Below are positions 4,991 through 48,645 of a stretch of DNA of 64,000 nucleotides, in pieces (position 1 is the stretch's first letter; every line of letters begins with the position of its first letter). The stretch spans positions 217,501-281,500 of the forward strand of contig JACATO010001527.1 of assembly GCA_018389105.1 (NCBI GenBank), in the 5' to 3' direction. Position numbers and translations under genes: made by a program. This DNA is from Nautilus pompilius (Eukaryota > Mollusca > Cephalopoda > Nautilida > Nautilidae). The notes beneath the pieces are model-generated. The model had not been told where the DNA came from, made no database searches, and was given only the letters and a program-made list of their open reading frames with translations.

Positions 4991-5341
4991 AGTTACAAGG
5001 ACGCAGGAAGTCATCACGGCTTATACAAGGCTACTTTAGCAGTTACAAGGACGCAGGAAGTCATCACGGCTTATACAAGGCTACTTTAGCAGTTACAAGG
5101 ACGCAGGAAGCCATCACGGCTTATACAAGGCTACTTTAGCAGTTACAAGGACGCAGGAAGCCATCACGGCTTATACAAGGCTACTTTAGCAGTTACAAGG
5201 ATGCAGGAAGCCATCACGGCTTATACAAGGCTTACTTTAGCAGTTACAAGGATGCAGGAAGCCATTACGGCTTATATAAGGCTACTTTAGCGGTTACAAG
5301 GACGTAGAAAGGCACCACGGCTTATACTAGCTTACTTTAGT
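4991..5341 (+). repeat. 50-bp tandem repeat, seven copies
   Basis: Seven consecutive copies of a 50-bp unit begin AGTTACAAGGACGCAGGAAG and end GGCTACTTTAGC. Copies start at 4991, 5041, 5091, 5141, 5191, 5242 and 5292. The first two are identical and divergence grows toward the right end. A broken eighth start (AGTTACTATTTAG) follows. The core of the unit (GGAAG, CATCACGGCTTATACAAGGC) is shared with the degenerate ~85-bp array at 14931-15390, so the two arrays are related. Confidence 0.97.
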
Positions 5342-6325
5342 AGTTACTATTTAGAAAACTTGTGTAGTGCCATAGTGCCAAATTATGTGTCTGCACCAGA
5401 ATTCATGGTCTAATTTAACCTTTGCTAATCATTTTCCTTTGTTCGCTTCATTCCAGGAATTTTTTTTTCTTTTTTCTATGAGTACATCGTCAATCATTAA
5501 CAAGACAGCAAACATCTCTGACTGGTAAGTTTATTTTTATCTTTTCAAATTATATTGTTTGGGATAGAGGAATAATAATGAAGTAAAGTATTTATTTTGC
5601 ACAATTTTAGCACATTAAAAATACCTAAAAGTTCAAACTAATGTTTATTTTTTTAATTAGCTAAAGAATAATCTGCATCTTCAATTAATCTGTAAACCAA
5701 AAATTAAAATAAGGATGGTCTTGCTTATATAAGCAGAATAAGTCAACACATATTGGCAGCCATGCATTCACCAATGCAACATCCCGCATATTCCACACAA
5801 TCAATTTTTAGTGCATAGAGTTACATGTATATTGGCATGACTACCAGAAAATATATGCATGACAAAATGTGATACAGAAAATATCTATTGTCAATCCATA
5901 AATCATTTTTAAAATGCCCACCATGCATGTACCAAGATGAAATAGCAAAGGCCGTAATAGCATCCAGCCGAGTTCCATTTGAATGTCTCTAGTATAATAC
6001 TCAAAGAAATCAATGACATGTTTAAATATACAGTAACCAAGGAAACTAAAAGAGTTATCTCTATCTGGGGCAATCAAAGAAACAGCATTACATGAATGCT
6101 GTGTGCAACATCAATAACATGGAAATGTTTTACTGCCTTATTACTACTGCATGTTCATGCTTGGCTGATACCAGAAACTTAAAAGTTAAAATTAATGTGC
6201 TGCCACGTCAGCACAAGTGAAAATATTCTAATTGGCATAATTAAATGTTGTTTGTTTTTTGTTGTTGTTTTTTTTATATACCTAATTGCCTCCTCTAGGT
6301 TAAAAGAAAACTGTCAGTTTATTTA
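5342..6325. other. Gene-free stretch, possible exon at 5457-5524
   Basis: AT-rich unique sequence. A segment at 5457-5524 (+) follows TTCATTCCAG and precedes GTAAGT. It stays open in one frame, containing MSTSSIINKTANISD. This is a plausible but unsupported exon candidate. Nothing else was recognised. Confidence 0.4.
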
Positions 6326-15903: not shown

Positions 15904-18177
15904 ATCATCGTTAGGGTACATCAAACGCCCCATGATTTTTAAAAGTGTCTGTTTTTGACTTGACCCTAGATTAATTTTTCTCCATTATGTAAAAAAATAA
16001 TTCCTGCAAAATTTCAGAAAAATTCACATTTGTTTGTGTGGGCCACCTGATGTTTGAAAATTTGAGCTGTTCGGCAGGTTCAGAGACCCGATCTTTAAAT
16101 ATTAAAATTTTTCATAGCTACTTGCCAGATATAGCTATTTTTTTTAATGGCAATATTTTAGCCCAAATGACATGATTTTTTACCACTTTACCAACATTTT
16201 TATGCATTTTTCATCTATATATATTACATTAACATTACGTCAACTTACGTGTACGGTACACTGTACATAAAGACAGCATCAATGTTATCAGATATGCAGA
16301 TATGCATAAATAATCCATGTGGAAAAGTTCTGTTCTGCTTATTTACAACGTTCAGATTGTTCATTTAGCTGTCAGTCTTTGCCTTGCATTTTCGCAGATT
16401 TGGAAGAGACTGATCTGTCTTCTTCCACAACTCAAAGAACATTTTGGTGGAGATCCTCACTTCTTGATGCAGAGAGAAAATCAGAACTTAACTTCACTCC
16501 CAACTCAGCACAGTCACTGATGACATTAAGTGCATCAACATGAGCTAGGAAGGCTTGATAGGCAGCAGACTCTGGCCATGCTTCAACAGGCTGTGCGCTA
16601 GGAACTCATGATTTATCTCAAGAATGTTCATTGTGAACCACAAGTCCCTCGATACTAAGTCAGCAAGTGTTGTAGATTCTTAGATGTCTGAAGGAAATTT
16701 TGGCATCTCCTTAATTCTGCTTCAGCACATTCTTCACTCTGCTGAATTCTTTGAGCCAACACCTTATCACTGGGTCCAAATATAGCAGTACAGTCTGTCT
16801 TCATTGACTGCAGAAACTGCAAGTCTTCAGGATTTTTTGTCAGTTTTTCTGCATTAGCTGGCCACAGCTGAAAAGTTTGATCAAGTTTAGTTTCAACTTG
16901 TTCAAATTTAGAGAGGAGAGCTGGTGAAGAATGACGATTAACAGGTATGCTTCTGAGTTTGTTGTTATCATCCATGAGCTTTATTATTTTTTCACATGCC
17001 TTGTGCTCTGTGATCATGGGAATATTGGCTTTCCCATAGAATGGCACAACTTTGAGAAGTACAATTTTTGCACACTCCCACTTTGTTTGGTTCTTCGATA
17101 TACCCTTTTAAAGATGGTACATCATACAGCGTAGTACTTGTCAACATGTTGGGAGTCGTGAGCAAGTTATTTGTGAATCATCATCAGTAATGCCTTTTCC
17201 AAGCCCAAATATGGTTTTTGCTTTACATGTCCCAGGAATTGATTGTGGCATATTAGTTGGTCTTGCTTTACAGTCTGACTCTGGATTTGATGAAGGTCCA
17301 GGTTCTGCTTTATCAACCATGGTTGACATCAAGAAAAAACACCAATGTGCAAAAGGATGTAGATATTATAAATTGAAACCTAAGTTAAAATATACCAAAT
17401 CAAAAAAATGCTACCAAACACTTTGAAAATATACCAAATTTTTGATTTTTGGTATATAAATATACCAGTTGGCAACCCTGCCTTGATCAGTGACTAATTT
17501 TAGCAACATAATTATGCAATGGAAATTCCCACTTCTTTAGATCGCATGTATGTTGTGCAATAGGCTCTAATTTTAGTAATGTTTGTATTAACCTTAAAGG
17601 CAATAGGAAATCCCAATTTCTAGAAATTTCTCCTTAGTATTTGTAAGACTGTGTGAAGATGCTTTAATGCGTTGTTAATGGGAAACACAAAACCAAAAAG
17701 AAGAATTCAGCTGTAAGATTGTTTCATTTCAGTTTTATTATTGTAAACAGCAAGTTGTATATTAAAATTATGTAGGAATGCAACAACAATGTCATATTAT
17801 CGGACATCAGTTTGGCAGCAACACAGTATCCAATGATATACATCTGGAATGTTAGTCATTTTTCTGTAAAAATATTGTTTTGAATAATCATATTCATTTC
17901 AATTAGGACTATCAATATCAGATGTAGAAATCATAGTTTGACAATTCAGTAACTTTTAATTGACTTTTATGGTATGGATTTGCATATTACCTTTTAAGCC
18001 TGCCGAATTCGACAACCTTGCGGTCAAAATTTTCAAACACATGGTGGCCCACCTAAACCAGCTTCAAATTGCCTAAGATTTTACTGTTAGTATTTTTTTT
18101 TTCACAAAGGAAAACTTTTAGAGTAGGGACAGAAAAAAATCTGATGGAAGGGGCGTTTGATGCACCCTAATCATCGT
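15904..18177. mobile_element. Complete DNA transposon with hAT-like ends (2,258 bp)
   Basis: The element spans 15912-18169 and is flanked on both sides by the 8-bp duplication ATCATCGT (15904-15911 and 18170-18177). Its ends are inverted repeats: TAGGGTACATCAAACGCCCC on the left, and TAGGGTGCATCAAACGCCCC when the right end is read inward. A second inverted pair lies inside: left 16039-16083 and right 17996-18045 share TGGGCCACC, TGTTTGAAAATTT and TTCGGCAGG blocks. An 8-bp duplication together with TAGGG termini is typical of the hAT superfamily. The interior holds a minus-strand pseudogene (16365-17332). A ~27-bp imperfect palindrome near 17430 and about 500 bp of AT-rich DNA precede the right end. 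Confidence 0.9.
16365..17332 (-). pseudogene. Broken transposon-encoded protein of unfamiliar family
   Basis: Reading the minus strand, one protein can be followed for about 320 codons across at least four frameshifts and one internal stop. The pieces are: MMSTMVDKAEPGPSSNPES onward (17332 to about 17155); NMLTSTTLYDVPSLKGYIEE with a CKNC...C cluster (about 17155-17045); FYGKANIPMITEHKACEKII through RIQQSEECAEAELRRCQNFL (17047-16660); LVSRDLWFTMNILEINHEF (about 16655-16590); VEAWPESAAYQAFLAHVDAL...GVKLSSDFLS (about 16590-16435); and a basic tail LPNLRKCKAKTDS ending at 16365. The even texture across breaks shows this was once a single coding frame. It lies wholly inside the TIR-bounded element, so it is probably the transposase or an accessory protein. 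I see no BED finger or hAT C-terminal motif. The family is not identified; the E of CAELGVKL could be a catalytic Glu, which is speculation. Confidence 0.8.
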
Positions 18178-21654: not shown

Positions 21655-21790
21655 TTTCAGGTACCTGTGGTGGAGATTTCACAGGTATCTCAACTGGCTT
21701 GCTCCTTAACCGCTGATCAAGAGCTCCCCACAAACCGTACACAGGTAATTCTCTCAGTCACCAAGGCTCAAACAACTCCCCCTCCAATAT
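21655..21790 (+). repeat. SINE body, family II copy
   Basis: It shares with 38090-38230 the order GGTACCTGTGGTGGAGATTTCACAG (read as two blocks), then a CTGATCAAGAGC block, then ACACAGG and GTCACCAAGGCT. Spacing between blocks is preserved. It lacks a recognisable tRNA-like head, so it is a truncated or diverged copy. Confidence 0.55.
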
Positions 21791-28379: not shown

Positions 28380-29680
28380 TACGAGGTGTACTCAAAAGGT
28401 ATCCGATCTTTGGCCAAAAAAACAAGTAATAGTAAAAACTCACCATTTTGATTTAGTTTCCTTCAAAGTATTCGCCTTGGGAGTCTACACACTTCTGCCA
28501 GCGTTCCTGCCACTGCTGAAAACATTTCTGGAAATCACTTTTTGGGATGCTGTAGAGCTGTGTCGTCGAATTTTGCTTAATGTCCTCTGTTGACTCAAAT
28601 CTTCTCCCTTTGAGTGTTTTTTTTAGCTTTGGGAATAGCCAAAAGTTACACAGGGCCAAGTCTGGGGAGTAGGAAGCCTGATGAACAAGTGGTGTGTTAT
28701 GCTTGGACAACGTGGGCGGAATGAGCAGGTGTGTTGTCACGGTGGAGTTGCCAGTTCTTTGCTGCCCACAGGTCGGGTCGTTTTCGCCGCACAGCTTCAC
28801 GAAGGTGACGAAGAACCCCCAGGTAGTATTCTTTGTTAATTGTCTGACCTTGTGGTGCATATTCATGGTGCACAATACCTCTGTAGTCAAAAAAACAGGT
28901 CATCATCAGTCTTGCTTTCTTTGGTCTTGGCGAGGATGGATGCTTCCATTGGGATGATTGCAATTTTGTTTCAGGGTCATAGCCGTACAGCCATGTCTCA
29001 TTGCCAGTGATGATAGTGTTCATGAAGTTTTGATCTTGGCTAGCACACTCCAGCATGTCCTGGGAGATTTCCTTTCTGTTTTCTTTCTGCTGGTCAGACA
29101 GAAACTTTGGTACGAATTTGGCCGATACCTTCCTCATGCACAAATCTTCTGTTATAATTGACTGAACTGACCCATGGCTGATTCCAACTTCAGCAACAAT
29201 CTCCTCAATAGTCACACGATGGTCTTCATAGACTATTCCTCGAACCTTTACAATCATTTCGTCGTTTCTGCTAGTCGATGGTCTGCCACAATGTGGCCCA
29301 CTGTCCACTGAGGTGCGGCCATCTTTGAACCAGTTGTACCACTCCTTTATTTGTGTTTTTCCCATAGCATTATCTCCAAAGGCCTTCTGAATCTTCTCGA
29401 TAGTCTTGGCTTGCGTATCACCAAGTTTTTGGCAGAATATGATACAGTATCTTTGCTCAATGCGCTCGGTCATCTTGAATCAAAAAGAAAAATCGCACAG
29501 CACACTTCACGTCTGTACTCAACGCGTCACTGCGGGCGACTGGCGCAACCTACAGACACGAAAATTTTTGTGCATGCTCAGGAAGGACGTGGCCACCTAA
29601 TACCCTTGCGGATTTTGCTCACGCATTATTATTTTGTTCAAACAAATTCAAGGTCGGATACTTTTTGACTACACCTTGTA
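28380..29680. mobile_element. Complete mariner element (1,297 bp) with TIRs and TA duplication
   Basis: The element spans 28382-29678, between TA dinucleotides at 28380-28381 and 29679-29680. The left end reads CGAGGTGTACTCAAAAGGTA; the right end read inward is CAAGGTGTAGTCAAAAAGTA. Similarity continues with TCCGATCTT/TCCGACCTT, giving TIRs of about 29 bp. Length and TA target site are standard for mariner. It encodes one transposase on the minus strand. CpG dinucleotides are far denser inside the element than outside, which suggests fairly recent arrival. Confidence 0.97.
28453..29473 (-). pseudogene. Mariner transposase, inactivated (DD34D type)
   Basis: The frame opens at MTERIEQRY (29473) and runs 258 codons; after a frameshift near 28700 it resumes at KHNTPLVHQ and ends at SQGEYFEGN (28453). 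The total is about 340 residues, the usual mariner length. The N-terminal helix-turn-helix region includes QIKEWYNWFKDGRTSV (41-56). RKVSAKFVPKFL lies at 114-125. The first catalytic Asp, in the usual TGDETW, is Asn here (residue 158, TGNETWLYGYDPETK). The second survives in LHRDNTPAH (Asp 246). The third, in the usual CDFWLFPK, is also Asn (CNFWLFPK). Both changes are single G-to-A steps in the codon. With two of three metal ligands lost and a frameshift, the protein cannot catalyse transposition. Related proteins include the mariner half of SETMAR. Confidence 0.97.
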
Positions 29681-35120: not shown

Positions 35121-36860
35121 CAAAGGTTCCCAACCTTTTTCTAATTTTGTACTCCTTCTGTCTCATGGTGGCAGCTCAAGTATCCCTTTACTATGTTTGC
35201 CCTCAACAAATGTTACTGCAGTTTCGTTAAAAGCCATTTGCAAGCTAAAAAGGTCTACCCCCTTATGTACCAAAATCATAGTTATATCACTGGTTCATAT
35301 TTAGCTAAACAAGATAGTCTGTAAAACACATCACTTCGGCCTGAGGCATTTAGCTAATCAATCCCAGGTGCAATGGAAAGACAAACATCTTTCTCATCCC
35401 ATTCATCATGTCGTTTTCCTGTATTGTTTTAATGCTAGCCAAAGCAAAGAATCCAGCTTCACATAAATATGTAGTTGCAAATGATAGCAAGGCTCCTTCT
35501 TTGCTTTCCATGTCAGCTCTTCATATTCATTTGAAATATCCAACCAAAGGATTGTGTTGTTTCATCCACAAATCTCATATTTCAGGCACGAAAAACGTCA
35601 TTGCTTAGCTCAATCAATTTATCTTCTTCCTCGATATTCAGGTTACGTAGCAGGTGCTTTTTCATAGCATTGTAGGCAGTCCTGATCAATTTCCAGTGGT
35701 TTCCATATCAATGAAGTACACACTGAATTGGGCAACAAGCCCTAAGAGATGGGTGTTGATTACACTGAAGATGTCCACTGCCTCAGGTTGTGCATCAGTG
35801 TAGTCAGTCAGATGAGTAAACACTGAAATAACACCTGATCTCCCATGCTCATTTGTTCTGCTTTATCAGTGAACCCTTTGATTTCAGCACAAAGATCAAT
35901 TATATTGGTTTCTGACCCTTGCATGCTCATGTTCAGCCTGCTAAGTTCATCAAATGCATCTGCTGAGCATGCAAGTTTTGGAATCCATTTAGGATCACCA
36001 AAGTAATCCATCGTGGCAGAATTTTGCTGTGTCAGGAACCTGGCTACCTCAGATTGCAAATCAAACACTCTTTTCAGTGGTCCACTTTGGAGTGGGGCAA
36101 AAGACCATGGTATTCAACATCCATTTCTTTACACATGACAAGCAAAATACGTGTTAAGGGGTCTGGCTTTGACAAAATTGACTACTTTCATAACAGAGTT
36201 TAAAAGATAGGTCTTCACTTCTTTAGATGCCAATGCCTCTCTGTACAGAAGAGTCGGTTGCAATTACCTTTGGTGCCACCTCTTTAGCTTGCGTGGGTTG
36301 AGACATTTAAAAATCTCTGTGATGGCAGTGTCAGACAACAATAATCTTCAACCTTTTCTTTTCCCAAACACAGCAAGCAAACACTAAAAGACATCAGCTG
36401 AATCATCAATCTGAAGTGCATCAGCAAGAACTGCTTGTATTTGGTCAATCAATTACCATCAATTGAGATTCCATGCCAACAGCAATCTCAGAAATTCTCT
36501 GAGAAACAATGTTGTTTGGCAATGGTGTCTTTTTTAGTTTCTCTGCCTGCTTGCTACCATACATAACTTTGTGTATGTCCACAGTGGCAGGAATAATTAA
36601 AAACTCTCCAATTGTATGTGCTTACCGGCACACTGCAATGTGCAGTGATACGAAGTACGAAGCAAACAGGCTGACAGTGAAATTCCGCTCGGAGTCTACT
36701 GACAAGACCAGGATGTTTTGTTTCTAAATGCCACACTAATAAAGATGGCTTAATGCGCTATTTAGGAGTTCTTCCAAGCAAATAACAGATTTTGGTATCA
36801 ATCTGCTGTCTTGCCCGTGCAAGTAAATTCAAACTCGGGTAAACAGCATTGGATTTATGC
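35121..36860 (-). pseudogene. hAT transposase pseudogene (BED-finger, ZBED5/GTF2IRD2-like)
   Basis: Minus-strand pieces in the order of a hAT transposase. The end of a BED zinc finger reads WHLETKHPGLVSR (about 36735). Next comes PATVDIHKVMYGSKQAEKLK with PNNIVSQRISEIAVGMESQL (about 36595-36460). REALASKEVKTYLLNSVMKV with VNFVKARPLN follows (about 36240-36150). MCKEMDVEYHGLLPHSKVD sits where relatives have the EEMG...LLLHTEVRW motif. Then come FDLQSEVARFL and GDPKWIPKLACSADAFDEL (36068-35900). The hAT C-terminal dimerisation motif reads YLCEAGFFALASIKT (about 35470-35425). Many frameshifts and stops separate them. The left end at 35121 reads CAAAGGTTCCCAACCTTTTT, a typical hAT terminus (CAGTGGTTCCCAACC in relatives). 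No matching right end was found, so the insertion is truncated or eroded there. Confidence 0.9.
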
Positions 36861-38004
36861 ATTCTCTTAGTCAGAGTCACTTTTCTTCTGGAAAAAGTTG
36901 TCTATTTTTATATGAATTTTATAAACAAAGCTTTTTTTTTTAATCAGGTGTAAGGGGTCTAAGTCTACTGAAGAACACATCCATCTTGCGCAGTACAGGT
37001 TTTTCTACAGAACAAGTCACTATGCAATAAAGATGAATTTAAAATCTACTGAATATATTATCTTCAACCATTATTTTCCTTAATCCTGTGTATTGCCTGC
37101 AATCCATTGATGTACCCTAATTTGGAACCTTGGTTATAATGTGCCACATGCTCTCTGCTCATGATGGTGAGCATGAGACCCATCCAATGCCCAGATTTCT
37201 CTTGATCTTCTGTACTGGCCCAGTTTAACATGGGTTTCCTCCCAGATCTTAATCAGAAGAGTTCTGTCAGCTATGTCACTGCTGATTAAGCACACATTTT
37301 AAGGGCTGTACCATTTTTAAAATCACTGCCACACAATCTGCTTTATACTTCAGCATTCTATAATCCCACTACAAAGTTCATGCTTTCTAGGGATCCCTGA
37401 ACAAAACAACAACAACAAACCAGTTCAATTTAGGTTAACACTAATCTAAATCAGTCAAGAAAGCATAACTATAAATATTAGTCGAGCTTAACGGGGATAA
37501 CATGTTAAGCTTTTGATAATAATATGGTTCAGTGAGAGGGCATCCTGGAAAACAAGTTTTATCGATTTCTTGCCCAAGTAAATGTCATCAAACCTATCAA
37601 TTGCTTGCTCATGCATCATTTTAGTTGTAAAACAACTGACAGCCTCTGCCCTGTGAAAGCTACACCAAAATTAAGATGTCAAGAGGTAATCATGGGTAAA
37701 TGTCATACCTGCGCTATTAGGCTAATAGGAAACTAATTGCCACAGGTACTAATACACAGGGCAAACTGCACCATTAGTTTGCAGTTGTCGGAAAAATTGC
37801 TGTGGTATTTATGATAGCTAGCATTCAACATATTAACCATTGTTGTTGTTGTTGTCGTCATAACCACTATTTCACTCCACCGTCCAGGACAGGGCCTGGA
37901 ACACTATAGAGGGGTGGGGAATAAGATTGTATGGCATAGCAACAGTGATGCAAAGGTCCCCCAGTGCAATCCCATTTCAAGCAAACTAATATATATTAAC
38001 TAAC
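36861..38004. other. Gene-free stretch with SINE traces
   Basis: About 37140-37260 carries a short family I-like block (AACATGGGTTTCCTCCC). A (GTT)n run lies near 37842-37853. The remaining sequence is unassigned AT-rich DNA. Confidence 0.4.
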
Positions 38005-38230
38005 TCTGGTGGTAGAAGGACAATGCACAGCACACTTGTCTGCTATGGACAAGGACCTGGATTTGATTTTTGCTGTGATCTGCTCAATCCAGGTACTTGT
38101 GGTAGAGGTTCCACAGTTAACTTTGAACCTTAGCCACTGTTCAAGATCACTTCCACAAATGCACCCAGGAAACTTGCTTGGTCACCAAGGCTGATGACCC
38201 AAACCTGACCCCTTCTAGCAACATTTTTGC
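38005..38230 (+). repeat. tRNA-derived SINE, family II, with head
   Basis: The head has TCTGGTGGTAGAAGGACAAT (A-box-like) and GACCTGGATTTGATTTTTGC (B-box-like). The body follows: GGTACTTGTGGTAGAGGTTC, a TTCAAGATCACTTCC block, and CTTGCTTGGTCACCAAGGCT. The same body occurs at 4395, 21655 and 54145. This is the most complete family II copy in the window. Confidence 0.65.
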
Positions 38231-39645: not shown

Positions 39646-39934
39646 GCACTCTTTGAAAAGTCTCATTTAAAAATTTAGATAACAGTATTAGCATTAAAAA
39701 AAAAATTATAGTTTTCTTCAGTTAGTTTCAAGTGTGTAGTATTGCAGAAATTGTTTGTTAGTTTTCAAAATTTAATCTTCAGTCATGAAGAATAAACAAG
39801 AAAAATTTAGAGAATTTAGATAATACAAGGGCATACACTGGTAGCCAGAAATGTGCACCCATGTTTGCAATAAAATAATTCATCAAGCAAAAGTGGCAAT
39901 AACTGTTGAGCTCTGACTGATTTAGACAAATTAC
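39646..39934. other. AT-rich spacer
   Basis: Short unassigned sequence between a SINE and the first copy of the A/B/C repeat. Confidence 0.6.
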
Positions 39935-40800
39935 ATATTTAGTGCAAGGGTCATTCAAATGAAACTTGGCCAAATGCAATTAAAGCAATACTGTTTTCTG
40001 CTGGGTTTCATTTGAACATCCAACTGAACCTACACTGACTCCGTATTCAGCTTTACAAAGTGATAAGATGAAAATAGAATAATGGAACAAAATACTCAAA
40101 ATGGGGGGAAAAAAGTATGTTTGATGATTTTTGAGCTGGACTGATAATGTGTAAACAGAATTTTTTTAAATCTGTGAATCCTTTTTCTAACTTGAGTGTG
40201 GAATTTTCGTTTTGTTTTAAATTGAAAAATCAAACATCATCTATTCTAAGAGCCTCATTTTTATTTACAATGGTACCAAGTAAAGAAATGAGCAAATTCT
40301 TTGACTTCCCTCAGATTTCTGTTGGATTCATACCCTAACAATTTGCTGACAGACCAAATGGGAAAACTGTTATGATATATTGTTAACATAGAGGCAGATG
40401 CAGGTTTGATATCATTGCCCTCACAGACAAACTTCTGTGCTTGAAGACCCTAATATTTAAAGGTCGCTGTGTTTGACTAAAGTAGACTTGTCCACAACTA
40501 CATGGAATGGATTAAATAGCAGGGATGCATTTAATTTCTGTGGGTCTTTCCCTCATACAAATGAAGATGTCTCAAACTCTGGTCGTCAAAAGAAAACATC
40601 AATGGTGAGTTTGTTGAGCATTCCTGAGATTTTGTCAGTAGTTCCTGGAATAAAAGAACGTGTAACATTTGATTTAAATTGTTGTATTTTTCCTTAGAAG
40701 AGCCTGACTTAGTTTTAATTAACGATTTGTTAAGTTTCTTTAGCATAAGAATTTGTTTTTAATACTTCACGAACATGTTTGATTCTGTTGAGCAAATTTT
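39935..40800 (+). repeat. Unclassified repeat, copy A
   Basis: Copy A matches copy B (47496-48360) at about 98%: roughly 15 substitutions and a few small indels by eye. It starts abruptly at ATATTTAGTGCAAGGG; the sequence further upstream is unrelated in the two copies. It begins with the 73-bp palindromic MITE. The right edge is at about 40800, where A diverges while B continues. Short frames on both strands are conserved only because the DNA is; I cannot assign a product. Confidence 0.9.
39948..40021. mobile_element. 74-bp palindromic MITE (copy 1)
   Basis: The left arm reads GGGTCATTCAAATGAAAC. The right arm ends in GGGTTTCATTTGAACATCC, giving GGATGTTCAAATGAAACCC when read inward. The arms take up half the element. 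Two further copies lie at 44716 and 47511. The ends resemble mariner/Tc1-type termini, but the parent element is not present here. Confidence 0.7.
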
Positions 40801-41404: not shown

Positions 41405-42080
41405 GTTGTGTGGCCACATGGTAATGATTCTTTACAGTTGTTTTATTCTCACCTTAATTCCATCAGGCTGTTCATACAATTTAGTATGGCATAGGTTAAT
41501 AGCTCACTTTTCTTTTTGGATGTGCAAATTACAGAAAGATTTTCAGGTTTCTTAAAACTGTCAGCACACAGAAAAGATATACACACAGATAAATATTTAG
41601 ATTTCCATAGCAATCATTCTGCTGACTGCAAAGTAAACTGTTTGCTCTGCTCTTTGTCAACAAACCTTTCAAATTTGTCATTCTTAAAGTTTGCTCAACA
41701 AAATCAAACATGTTCGTCAAGTATCAAAAACAAATTCTTATGCTAAAGAAACTTAACAAATCGTTAATTAAAACTAAGTCAGGCTCTTCTAAGGAAAAAT
41801 ACAACAATTTAAATCAAATGTTACACGTTCTTTTATTCCAGGAACTACTGACAAAATCTCAGGAATGCTTAACAAACTCACCATTGATGTTTTCTTTTGA
41901 CGACCAGAGTTTGAGACATCTTCATTTGTACAAGGGAAAGGCCAACAGATATTAAATGCATCCCTGGTATTTATTCCCATTGGTCATCATCAGTGTAAGG
42001 GCATAAATCTGAAACGTGTATTTGCGTCACTGACAAACGTGACAATTCTCCCATTTGGTCTGGCAGCAAATCTTTAGTGA
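41405..42080 (-). repeat. Unclassified repeat, copy C (inverted)
   Basis: Copy C is inverted relative to A and B. It matches B from the GGCCACAC block (41411; 48625 in B) through 41973, at roughly 92%. After a gap it matches again where CCCATTTGGTCTG and CAGCAAAT align with B near 47895-47920. It lacks the MITE end. The open frame at 41710-41955 (+) corresponds to minus-strand frames in A and B. No known domain is recognised. Confidence 0.85.
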
Positions 42081-47495: not shown

Positions 47496-48645
47496 ACATA
47501 TTTAGTGCAAGGGTCATTCAAATGAAACCTGGCCAAATGCAATTAAATCAATACTGTTTTCTGCTGGGTTTCATTTGAACATCCAACCGAACCTACACTG
47601 ACTCTGTATTCAGCTTTACAAAGTGATAAGATGAAAATAGAATGATGGAACAAAATACTCAAAATGGGGGGAAAAAGGTTATGATTTTTGAGCTGGACTG
47701 ATAATGTGTAAACAGAATGTTTTAAATCTGTGAATCCTTTTTCTAACTTGAGTGTGGAATTTTCGTTTTGTTTTAAAATTGAAAAATCAAACATCATCTA
47801 TTCTAAGAGCCTCATTTTTATTTACAATGGTACCAAGTAAAGAAATGAGCAAATTCTTTGACTTCCCTCAGATTTCTGTTGGATTCATACCCTAACAATT
47901 TGCTGACAGACCAAATGGGAAAACTGTTATGATATATTGTTAACATAGAGGCAGATGCAGGTTTGATATCATTGCCCTCACAGACAAACTTCTGTGCTTG
48001 AAGACCCTAATATTTAAAGGTCGCTGTGTTTGACTGAAGTAGACTTGTCCACAACTACATGGAATGGAATAAATAGCAGGGATGCATTTAATATCTGTGG
48101 GTCTTTCCCTCATACAAATGAAGATGTCTCAAACTCTGGTCGTCAAAAGAAAACATCAATGGTGAGTTTGTTGAGCATTCCTGAGATTTTATCAGTAGTT
48201 CCTGGAATAAAAGAACATGTAACATTTGATTTAAATTGTTGTATTTTTCCTTAGAAGAGCCTGACTTAGTTTTAATTAACGATTTGTTAAGTTTCTTTAG
48301 CATAAGAATTTGTTTTTGATACTTGACGAACATGTTTGATTTTGTTGAGCAAACTTTAAGAATAACAAATTTGAAAGGTTTGTTGACAAAGAGCAGAGAA
48401 AACACTTTACTTTGCAGTCAGCAGAATAATTGCTATGGAAATCTAAATATTTATCTGTGTTAATTTCTTTACTGTGTGCTGACAGTTTTAAGAAACCTTG
48501 AAAACGTTTTGGTAAATTGTACATCCAAAAAGGAAAGTGAGCTATTAATTTATCCCATACTAAATTGTATGGACAGCCTGATGGAATTAAGAAAAGGAAA
48601 ATACTGTAAAAAGGAATTATTGCATGGCCACACAATTTTGTATTA
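47496..48645 (+). repeat. Unclassified repeat, copy B
   Basis: Copy B is the longest of the three. Its left two thirds equal copy A. Its right part (48360-48640) continues into sequence shared only with inverted copy C, ending near the GGCCACACAA block. It therefore bridges A and C and gives the best estimate of the parent unit (at least 1.15 kb). Minus-strand frames of 105 and 112 codons (48088-48405 and 48297-48635) overlap in different phases and resemble no known protein. Confidence 0.9.
47511..47584. mobile_element. 74-bp palindromic MITE (copy 3)
   Basis: It is nearly identical to the copy at 39948-40021, since it was carried with the A/B duplication. Arms are GGGTCATTCAAATGAAACC and, read inward, GGATGTTCAAATGAAACCC. 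Confidence 0.7.

Follow-up and report, generated by a model that had tools for sequence, protein, structure and literature searches.

The element at positions 15904–18177 of the window, the 64,000-nucleotide stretch of Nautilus pompilius DNA analysed here (C1454:217501-281500), is very probably a non-autonomous, internally deleted derivative of a ~3.8-kb cut-and-paste transposon that codes for an 837-aa transposase of the RNase-H-type D...D...CxxH kind. The ends of the element, its target site duplication, its family, its deletion, and the presence of the same or similar deletions at unrelated sites have been observed directly. As in non-autonomous derivatives in general, the ends are kept and the catalytic core is lost, while a parent is found in the same genome and the deletion is recurrent. 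An autonomous window copy has been rejected because of the absent catalytic core. As an internal-deletion derivative the window copy is ordinary, and the interest sits in the parent lineage.

The element is flanked by two identical 8-bp copies of ATCATCGT, read directly at 15904–15911 and 18170–18177; the length of 8 bp is backed by other copies of the family. The terminal inverted repeats, TAGGGTACATCAAACGCCCC on the left (15912–15931, plus strand) and GGGGCGTTTGATGCACCCTA on the right (18150–18169, minus strand), have been defined by direct reading and repeat comparison and match at 19 of 20 positions. The commonest left-end form among the other copies is TAGGGTGCATCAAACGCCCC. Imperfect subterminal inverted repeats follow on the inside, with a left arm at 15932–16100 (plus strand) and a right arm at 17991–18149 (minus strand), the outer limits of both being approximate. 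Their ungapped cores, 15991–16063 and 18027–18099, are 73 nt long and 73% complementary, and the inverted similarity reaches ~150–190 bp inward from each element end when gaps are allowed. The inverted TAGGG ends, the second inner inverted pair and the identical flanks reported in the preliminary description have thus been confirmed by reading. A chance pair of repeats has been rejected, since 19/20 inverted ends with identical 8-bp flanks at a span of up to 5 kb have an expectation of ~2.4e-6 per 64 kb under a model of base composition alone. The window has a GC content of 35% and a CpG ratio of 0.28, holds a single copy of the element, and gives no match in an Rfam scan.

Two remnants of a transposase gene lie between the arms, both on the minus strand. 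The 3' remnant (16368–16703) corresponds to residues 727–837 of the consensus protein described below, as determined by tblastn with that protein and by translations, and is frame-shifted and carries a stop. The 5' remnant (16706–17329, tblastn) corresponds to residues 1–208 with 91% identity to the consensus, and in-frame stops separate its open stretches of 63 aa and 150 aa. At the junction between them (16703–16706), ~1.55 kb of the full-length element is absent, namely residues 209–726 with the catalytic core, or consensus 845–2390 in window orientation. The stretch upstream of the transposase start (17330–17990) is without a match to the consensus protein. The internal gene had been called unfamiliar, which holds in that its protein cannot be recognised as one of hAT type; the gene nevertheless consists of two pieces left over from the transposase gene of the element itself.

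Several other features of the window have been observed. A decayed mariner transposase is found at 28453–29479 on the minus strand, in two overlapping open frames (Transposase_1, 4.6e-13; HTH_48, 4.6e-8). One repeat family occupies 39933–40800 and 47496–48357 as well as 41406–41977 and 48066–48635, in direct (97% over 869 bp) and inverted (92–96%) orientation. At 4991–5347, a 50-bp unit is repeated 7.1 times in tandem, with 93% matches. The stretches 21658–21768 and 38090–38192 are 70% similar, and the latter resembles a tRNA-type SINE by reading. A true hAT remnant had been placed at 35–37 kb; Pfam has not confirmed this assignment, which was made by reading: the three minus-strand frames of 35401–36902 (with stops written as X) have no match.

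The family has been followed in a 727.6-Mb assembly of 2558 contigs. A DNA search with the element gave at least 88 matching stretches (the best 40 of 152 candidates were scored), and at least 150 matches were obtained with the 150-aa fragment of the window copy (the best 150 of 226 candidates were scored). Thirty-nine copies were taken with their flanks, together with pieces completing several longer copies. Four full-length copies with both ends, on C365, C300, C1276 and C2, measure 3751–3828 bp. The full-length parent, ~3.8 kb long, has TAGGGTG ends and long imperfect subterminal inverted repeats. A 3874-bp majority consensus was built from ten longer copies and the window element, to which the right part of the window copy is 94.7% identical and the left part 88.5%. 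Another window-family copy, C1675:51919-52269, seemingly has a tandem array of ~70-bp units in its left part, as judged from repeated matches to query 299–372.

Once the reading at two indel spots had been decided by eye, the consensus codes for a single 837-aa protein on one strand, and this protein has a transposase-like D...D...CxxH core formed by HWD, FDTTSSNTG and CRHH. Both its fold and its enzymatic role as a transposase are predicted. None of the window-family copies read has an intact full-length frame, and the 837-aa protein is that of the consensus. The ten longer copies match it piecewise or with low-identity stretches, which is the pattern expected of decayed copies.

The catalytic core is full in 8, partial in 3 and absent in 30 of 41 loci, although these were mostly picked by similarity to the deleted copy and the share of deleted copies is therefore overstated. 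Five deletion classes of 2–5 loci each have been distinguished, grouped by eye with approximate breakpoints and not on the basis of junction letters. The exact junction of the window copy is also present at L076, which is at another site and has a different right flank. Among 16 pairs of loci within the same class, 15 have no shared left flank (blastn, up to ~290 bp), and the remaining pair is a segmental duplicate. Since the deletion classes occur at unrelated sites, the gutted copies appear to have moved after the deletion. Without a catalytic core of their own, the deleted copies were most likely moved in trans by a full-length transposase, as judged from the copy patterns. In the mechanism proposed here, the deletion of ~1.55 kb that removed the catalytic core of the ~3.8-kb parent left the ends that the enzyme presumably requires, so that a full-length transposase could move the deleted copies in trans. 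Insertion at 8-bp nTnnnnAn sites would then proceed as in hAT elements.

This arrangement is comparable to Ds, the internal-deletion derivative of a hAT element in which the ends are kept, the transposase core is deleted, and several deletion classes are found at new sites. The window family is alike in its kept ends, its deleted core and its several spread deletion classes. It is unlike Ds in that its parent transposase belongs to a lineage without a Pfam model.

The target sites have been read in 31 of 42 sequences, the window included; ten were dropped for a missing or unclear end and one as a segmental duplicate. The ends of each copy were set from the terminal motif only, with the flanks ignored, and the window's own ends were entered as read. 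The 8-bp flanks are identical in 14 of the 31 copies, differ by one mismatch in 10, and show two to eight differences in 7. Consequently, 24 of 31 readable copies share both the ends and an 8-bp duplication at no more than one mismatch, compared with a mean of 1.7 and a maximum of 7 when the right flanks were reshuffled 2000 times. These counts bear out the view that the TIR transposon in the window is real, that its ends and its duplication are of the hAT kind, and that other copies should show the same. The pooled target consensus is RTGTACAY, of the form nTnnnnAn. Of the 62 flanks, which are two per copy and hence non-independent, 50 carry the T of position 2 and 49 the A of position 7. In the window duplication, ATCATCGT, the T of this pattern is present and the A is absent. 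Hermes is reported in PMC10368747 to favour 5'-nTnnnnAn-3' targets, and the pooled flanks of the 31 copies show this Hermes-type preference.

Relatives of the family are present in the same genome. The 80-aa core was searched against the assembly, and the best 150 of 338 candidates were scored. Besides close decayed copies, three groups occur among the matches listed: 22 places of equal score, whose open frames of 488–801 aa run through the match without a stop; 3 places whose frame measures 755 aa; and 53 places that share another equal score and have frames of 195–452 aa, often 436. One place was read for each of these three groups, and these will be referred to as L105, L107 and L106, respectively. 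The element L105 (C340) measures 2885 bp, ends in TAGGGTGGTCCAT, is flanked by a duplication of GTATAGAT, and has an intact 744-aa frame. A register one base leftward also gives 8 identical letters, and GTATAGAT is the one that fits the TAGGG...CCCTA ends. Over 529 aa, the L105 protein and the consensus have 32% identity (E 2.5e-70), and the 755-codon frame of L107 (C1009) is 37% identical to the L105 protein (E 1.5e-133). L106 (C360), which is less closely related and is predicted to have several exons, retains NTG and CxxH; its element ends were not found within 4.4 kb around the locus. The place C360:2827519 and the 52 others of equal score make up a numerous, more distant family within this transposase lineage, for which several exons are predicted. 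At ~340 bp from the L105 element, an open frame on the plus strand (L105:1-417) resembles a BED-type hAT/ZBED gene fragment by reading.

The end motif of L105 occurs 55 times in the genome (26 + 29), against 13 + 8 for a backward control, and 48 of these occurrences form 24 convergent pairs 2.75–2.90 kb apart. By eye, each of the 24 pairs encloses a listed core match, and 21 of the 22 equal-score matches lie inside such pairs. The scores of the L105-type copies are equal, their lengths nearly so and their frames open, which suggests that they moved recently; the duplication has been read in one of them.

The preliminary description had also considered a hAT element with a replaced gene. hAT-like ends around a non-hAT protein are what such a captured host gene would produce. 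However, the protein sits at the same place in many copies, and in the relative L105 ends of this type enclose a protein in which D, D and CxxH are conserved. The internal gene is the same family's transposase gene on the minus strand with its catalytic middle deleted, so that host-gene capture, which the L105-type pairs also speak against, has been rejected and is extremely improbable.

By its ends, duplication and target choice, the window lineage works like hAT. The end letters of hAT elements are TAGGG or CAGGG. Their terminal inverted repeats are given as short, 10–25 bp, in PMC3942097. The ends of the window element, at 20 bp, are of this short type, and the long imperfect inner repeats are additional. 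Apart from the 8-bp duplication found in 24 of 31 copies, the L105 duplication GTATAGAT is also of the hAT type. The lineage further resembles Hermes and the Ac group in the nTnnnnAn form of the duplicated site, its TAGGG-type ends, the D-D-CxxH order, similar D-D spacing, and an element length within 2.5–5 kb. On the other hand, it differs from hAT in its subterminal inverted repeats, which are long and imperfect, in N- and C-terminal regions peculiar to it, and in being without a detectable BED finger, Hermes DNA-binding domain, Dimer_Tnp_hAT domain or SERxF motif.

The missing domains emerge from Pfam scans of the 837-aa consensus, the L105 and L107 proteins and predicted exons 1 and 2 of L106, with Hermes as the control. 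The protein fragments of the window have no Pfam match. The best-scoring model is DUF2630 (E 0.022) for the consensus, and the best E is 0.21 for the L105 protein and the two L106 exons; neither in these nor in the L107 protein does any model reach its cut-off. In the Hermes control, DBD_Tnp_Hermes and Dimer_Tnp_hAT (4.1e-25) were matched and zf-BED, at E 0.0013, fell just under the curated cut-off. Dimer_Tnp_hAT was not matched by any of the scanned lineage proteins, and in the same genome 150 of 150 scored places pass its cut-off (the best 150 of 3065 candidates). The lineage proteins do not match zf-BED either, which is a weak test given that the Hermes control is also under the curated cut-off. 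A regular expression for SERxF finds the motif in Hermes and in none of the lineage proteins. These results agree with the original statement that the internal protein lacks a BED finger and the hAT C-terminal motif, now for the full-length consensus as well as the window fragments, and the proposed comparison of the consensus protein with known families has likewise yielded no Pfam model at cut-off.

Profile alignment to Hermes with hhalign gave nothing significant, the profiles being so shallow that a distant homology may have been missed. The best run had a probability of 2.5% and a score of 27.5, versus 11.3–21.6 for five shuffled copies and one reversed copy; this alignment is not taken as homology because the CxxH region was paired with the BED end of Hermes. 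Further runs gave probabilities of 0.2–0.3%, one of them inside the range of 20 shuffles. Searches of the PDB by sequence and by profile found no transposase. The two D residues and CxxH are conserved in four lineage members. The D-to-D spacing is 70 in the consensus, 68 in L105, 64 in L107 and 84 in L106, compared with 68 in Hermes, and CxxH lies 29 residues past the second D in all four members versus 17 in Hermes. As candidates for the third catalytic acid, the acids near HLWYLTSEMV / HLWYVSEELV / HLWYLAEDLV form no single invariant column and are absent in L106. A consistent domain set of an N-terminal region, the core, and a C-terminal AERGV region is shared by the consensus, L105 and L107 proteins.

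We have withheld hAT membership because two of its hallmark domains, when tested for, were not recognised by sequence. A divergent branch inside the hAT superfamily, with the same mechanism and with BED and dimerisation domains that have diverged past recognition, has in our estimate roughly an even chance of being correct. The 8-bp nTnnnnAn duplication, the TAGGG ends, the CxxH after the second D, and the D-D spacing of 70, 68 and 64 against 68 in Hermes all argue for such a branch, while the lack of a match to Dimer_Tnp_hAT, zf-BED or any other hAT model in the consensus, L105, L107 and the first two L106 exons, the lack of a significant profile alignment to Hermes (though from shallow profiles), and the missing SERxF motif argue against it. 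A separate DDE superfamily of the CxxH group, which would have in common with hAT only the length and letters of its targets and the letters of its ends, is a serious possibility to which we give somewhat less credence. The consistent domain set of the consensus, L105 and L107 proteins, outside all Pfam models, is in its favour. However, that target preference and ends agree with those of hAT speaks for a shared descent, and a lineage missing from Pfam may still be present in Repbase or Dfam. In its fuller form, in which the lineage would be a separate and still mobile CxxH DDE superfamily of animals with N- and C-terminal domains of its own, converged on or descended from the 8-bp targeting of hAT and missed by protein-domain libraries, the proposal is tentative and rather doubtful.

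Other superfamilies have been compared through Pfam models. Kolobok and Dada differ in the length of their duplications. PMC10045372 describes a C/DxxH motif between the second D and the last acid in the CxxH group of Kolobok, Dada, MuDR and P. The lineage proteins resemble this group in having CxxH past the second D and are unlike it in that they reach no family's Pfam cut-off. P elements have 8-bp duplications. Such duplications are also reported for Merlin and Zisupton in PMC10045372 and PMC12730594. An element of the P, Merlin or Zisupton type would account for the duplication length of 8 bp, but it is very improbable, as no Pfam model reaches its cut-off in the scanned proteins, a comparison that is indirect.

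The window protein fragment had no relative among phages and viral contigs, and neither did the consensus core among viral contigs. A scan for the motif FDTT..NTG gave 2 matches in viral contigs and 29 in prokaryote contigs, and in none of these 31 is CRHH found within 90 residues downstream. On the other hand, the window fragments resemble the ends of what we take to be an abundant group of unnamed "uncharacterized" invertebrate proteins with FDTTASNTG, CRHHI and AERGV. The FDTTASNTG...CRHH middle was predicted before the genome copies were read, and was found in them at the expected place as FDTTSSNTG...CRHH. A composite sequence of this invertebrate family, independent of the window fragments only in its middle, is 33% identical to the consensus over 507 aa (E 3e-79) and 48.6% identical to the L105 protein over 693 aa; in Pfam it gives nothing above cut-off. 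The lineage is presumably widespread in animals. No title or abstract naming it was found, with Repbase Reports and most subscription journals outside the scope of the search, and six lineage motif strings are absent from the papers searched, although the lineage may still be published. Some of its members are likely listed in Repbase or Dfam, perhaps as hAT.

The annotation of transposons depends on domain models, and a lineage with many copies, and with one intact frame between good ends, escapes Pfam. Since no Pfam cut-off is reached, genes of this lineage could be mistaken for uncharacterized genes of the host, and the deletion derivatives for unclassified repeats. L105 is an intact element suited to a direct transposition test. 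If the lineage is truly hAT-like without the dimerisation and BED domains, it would show which parts of hAT can be spared in 8-bp nTnnnnAn targeting.
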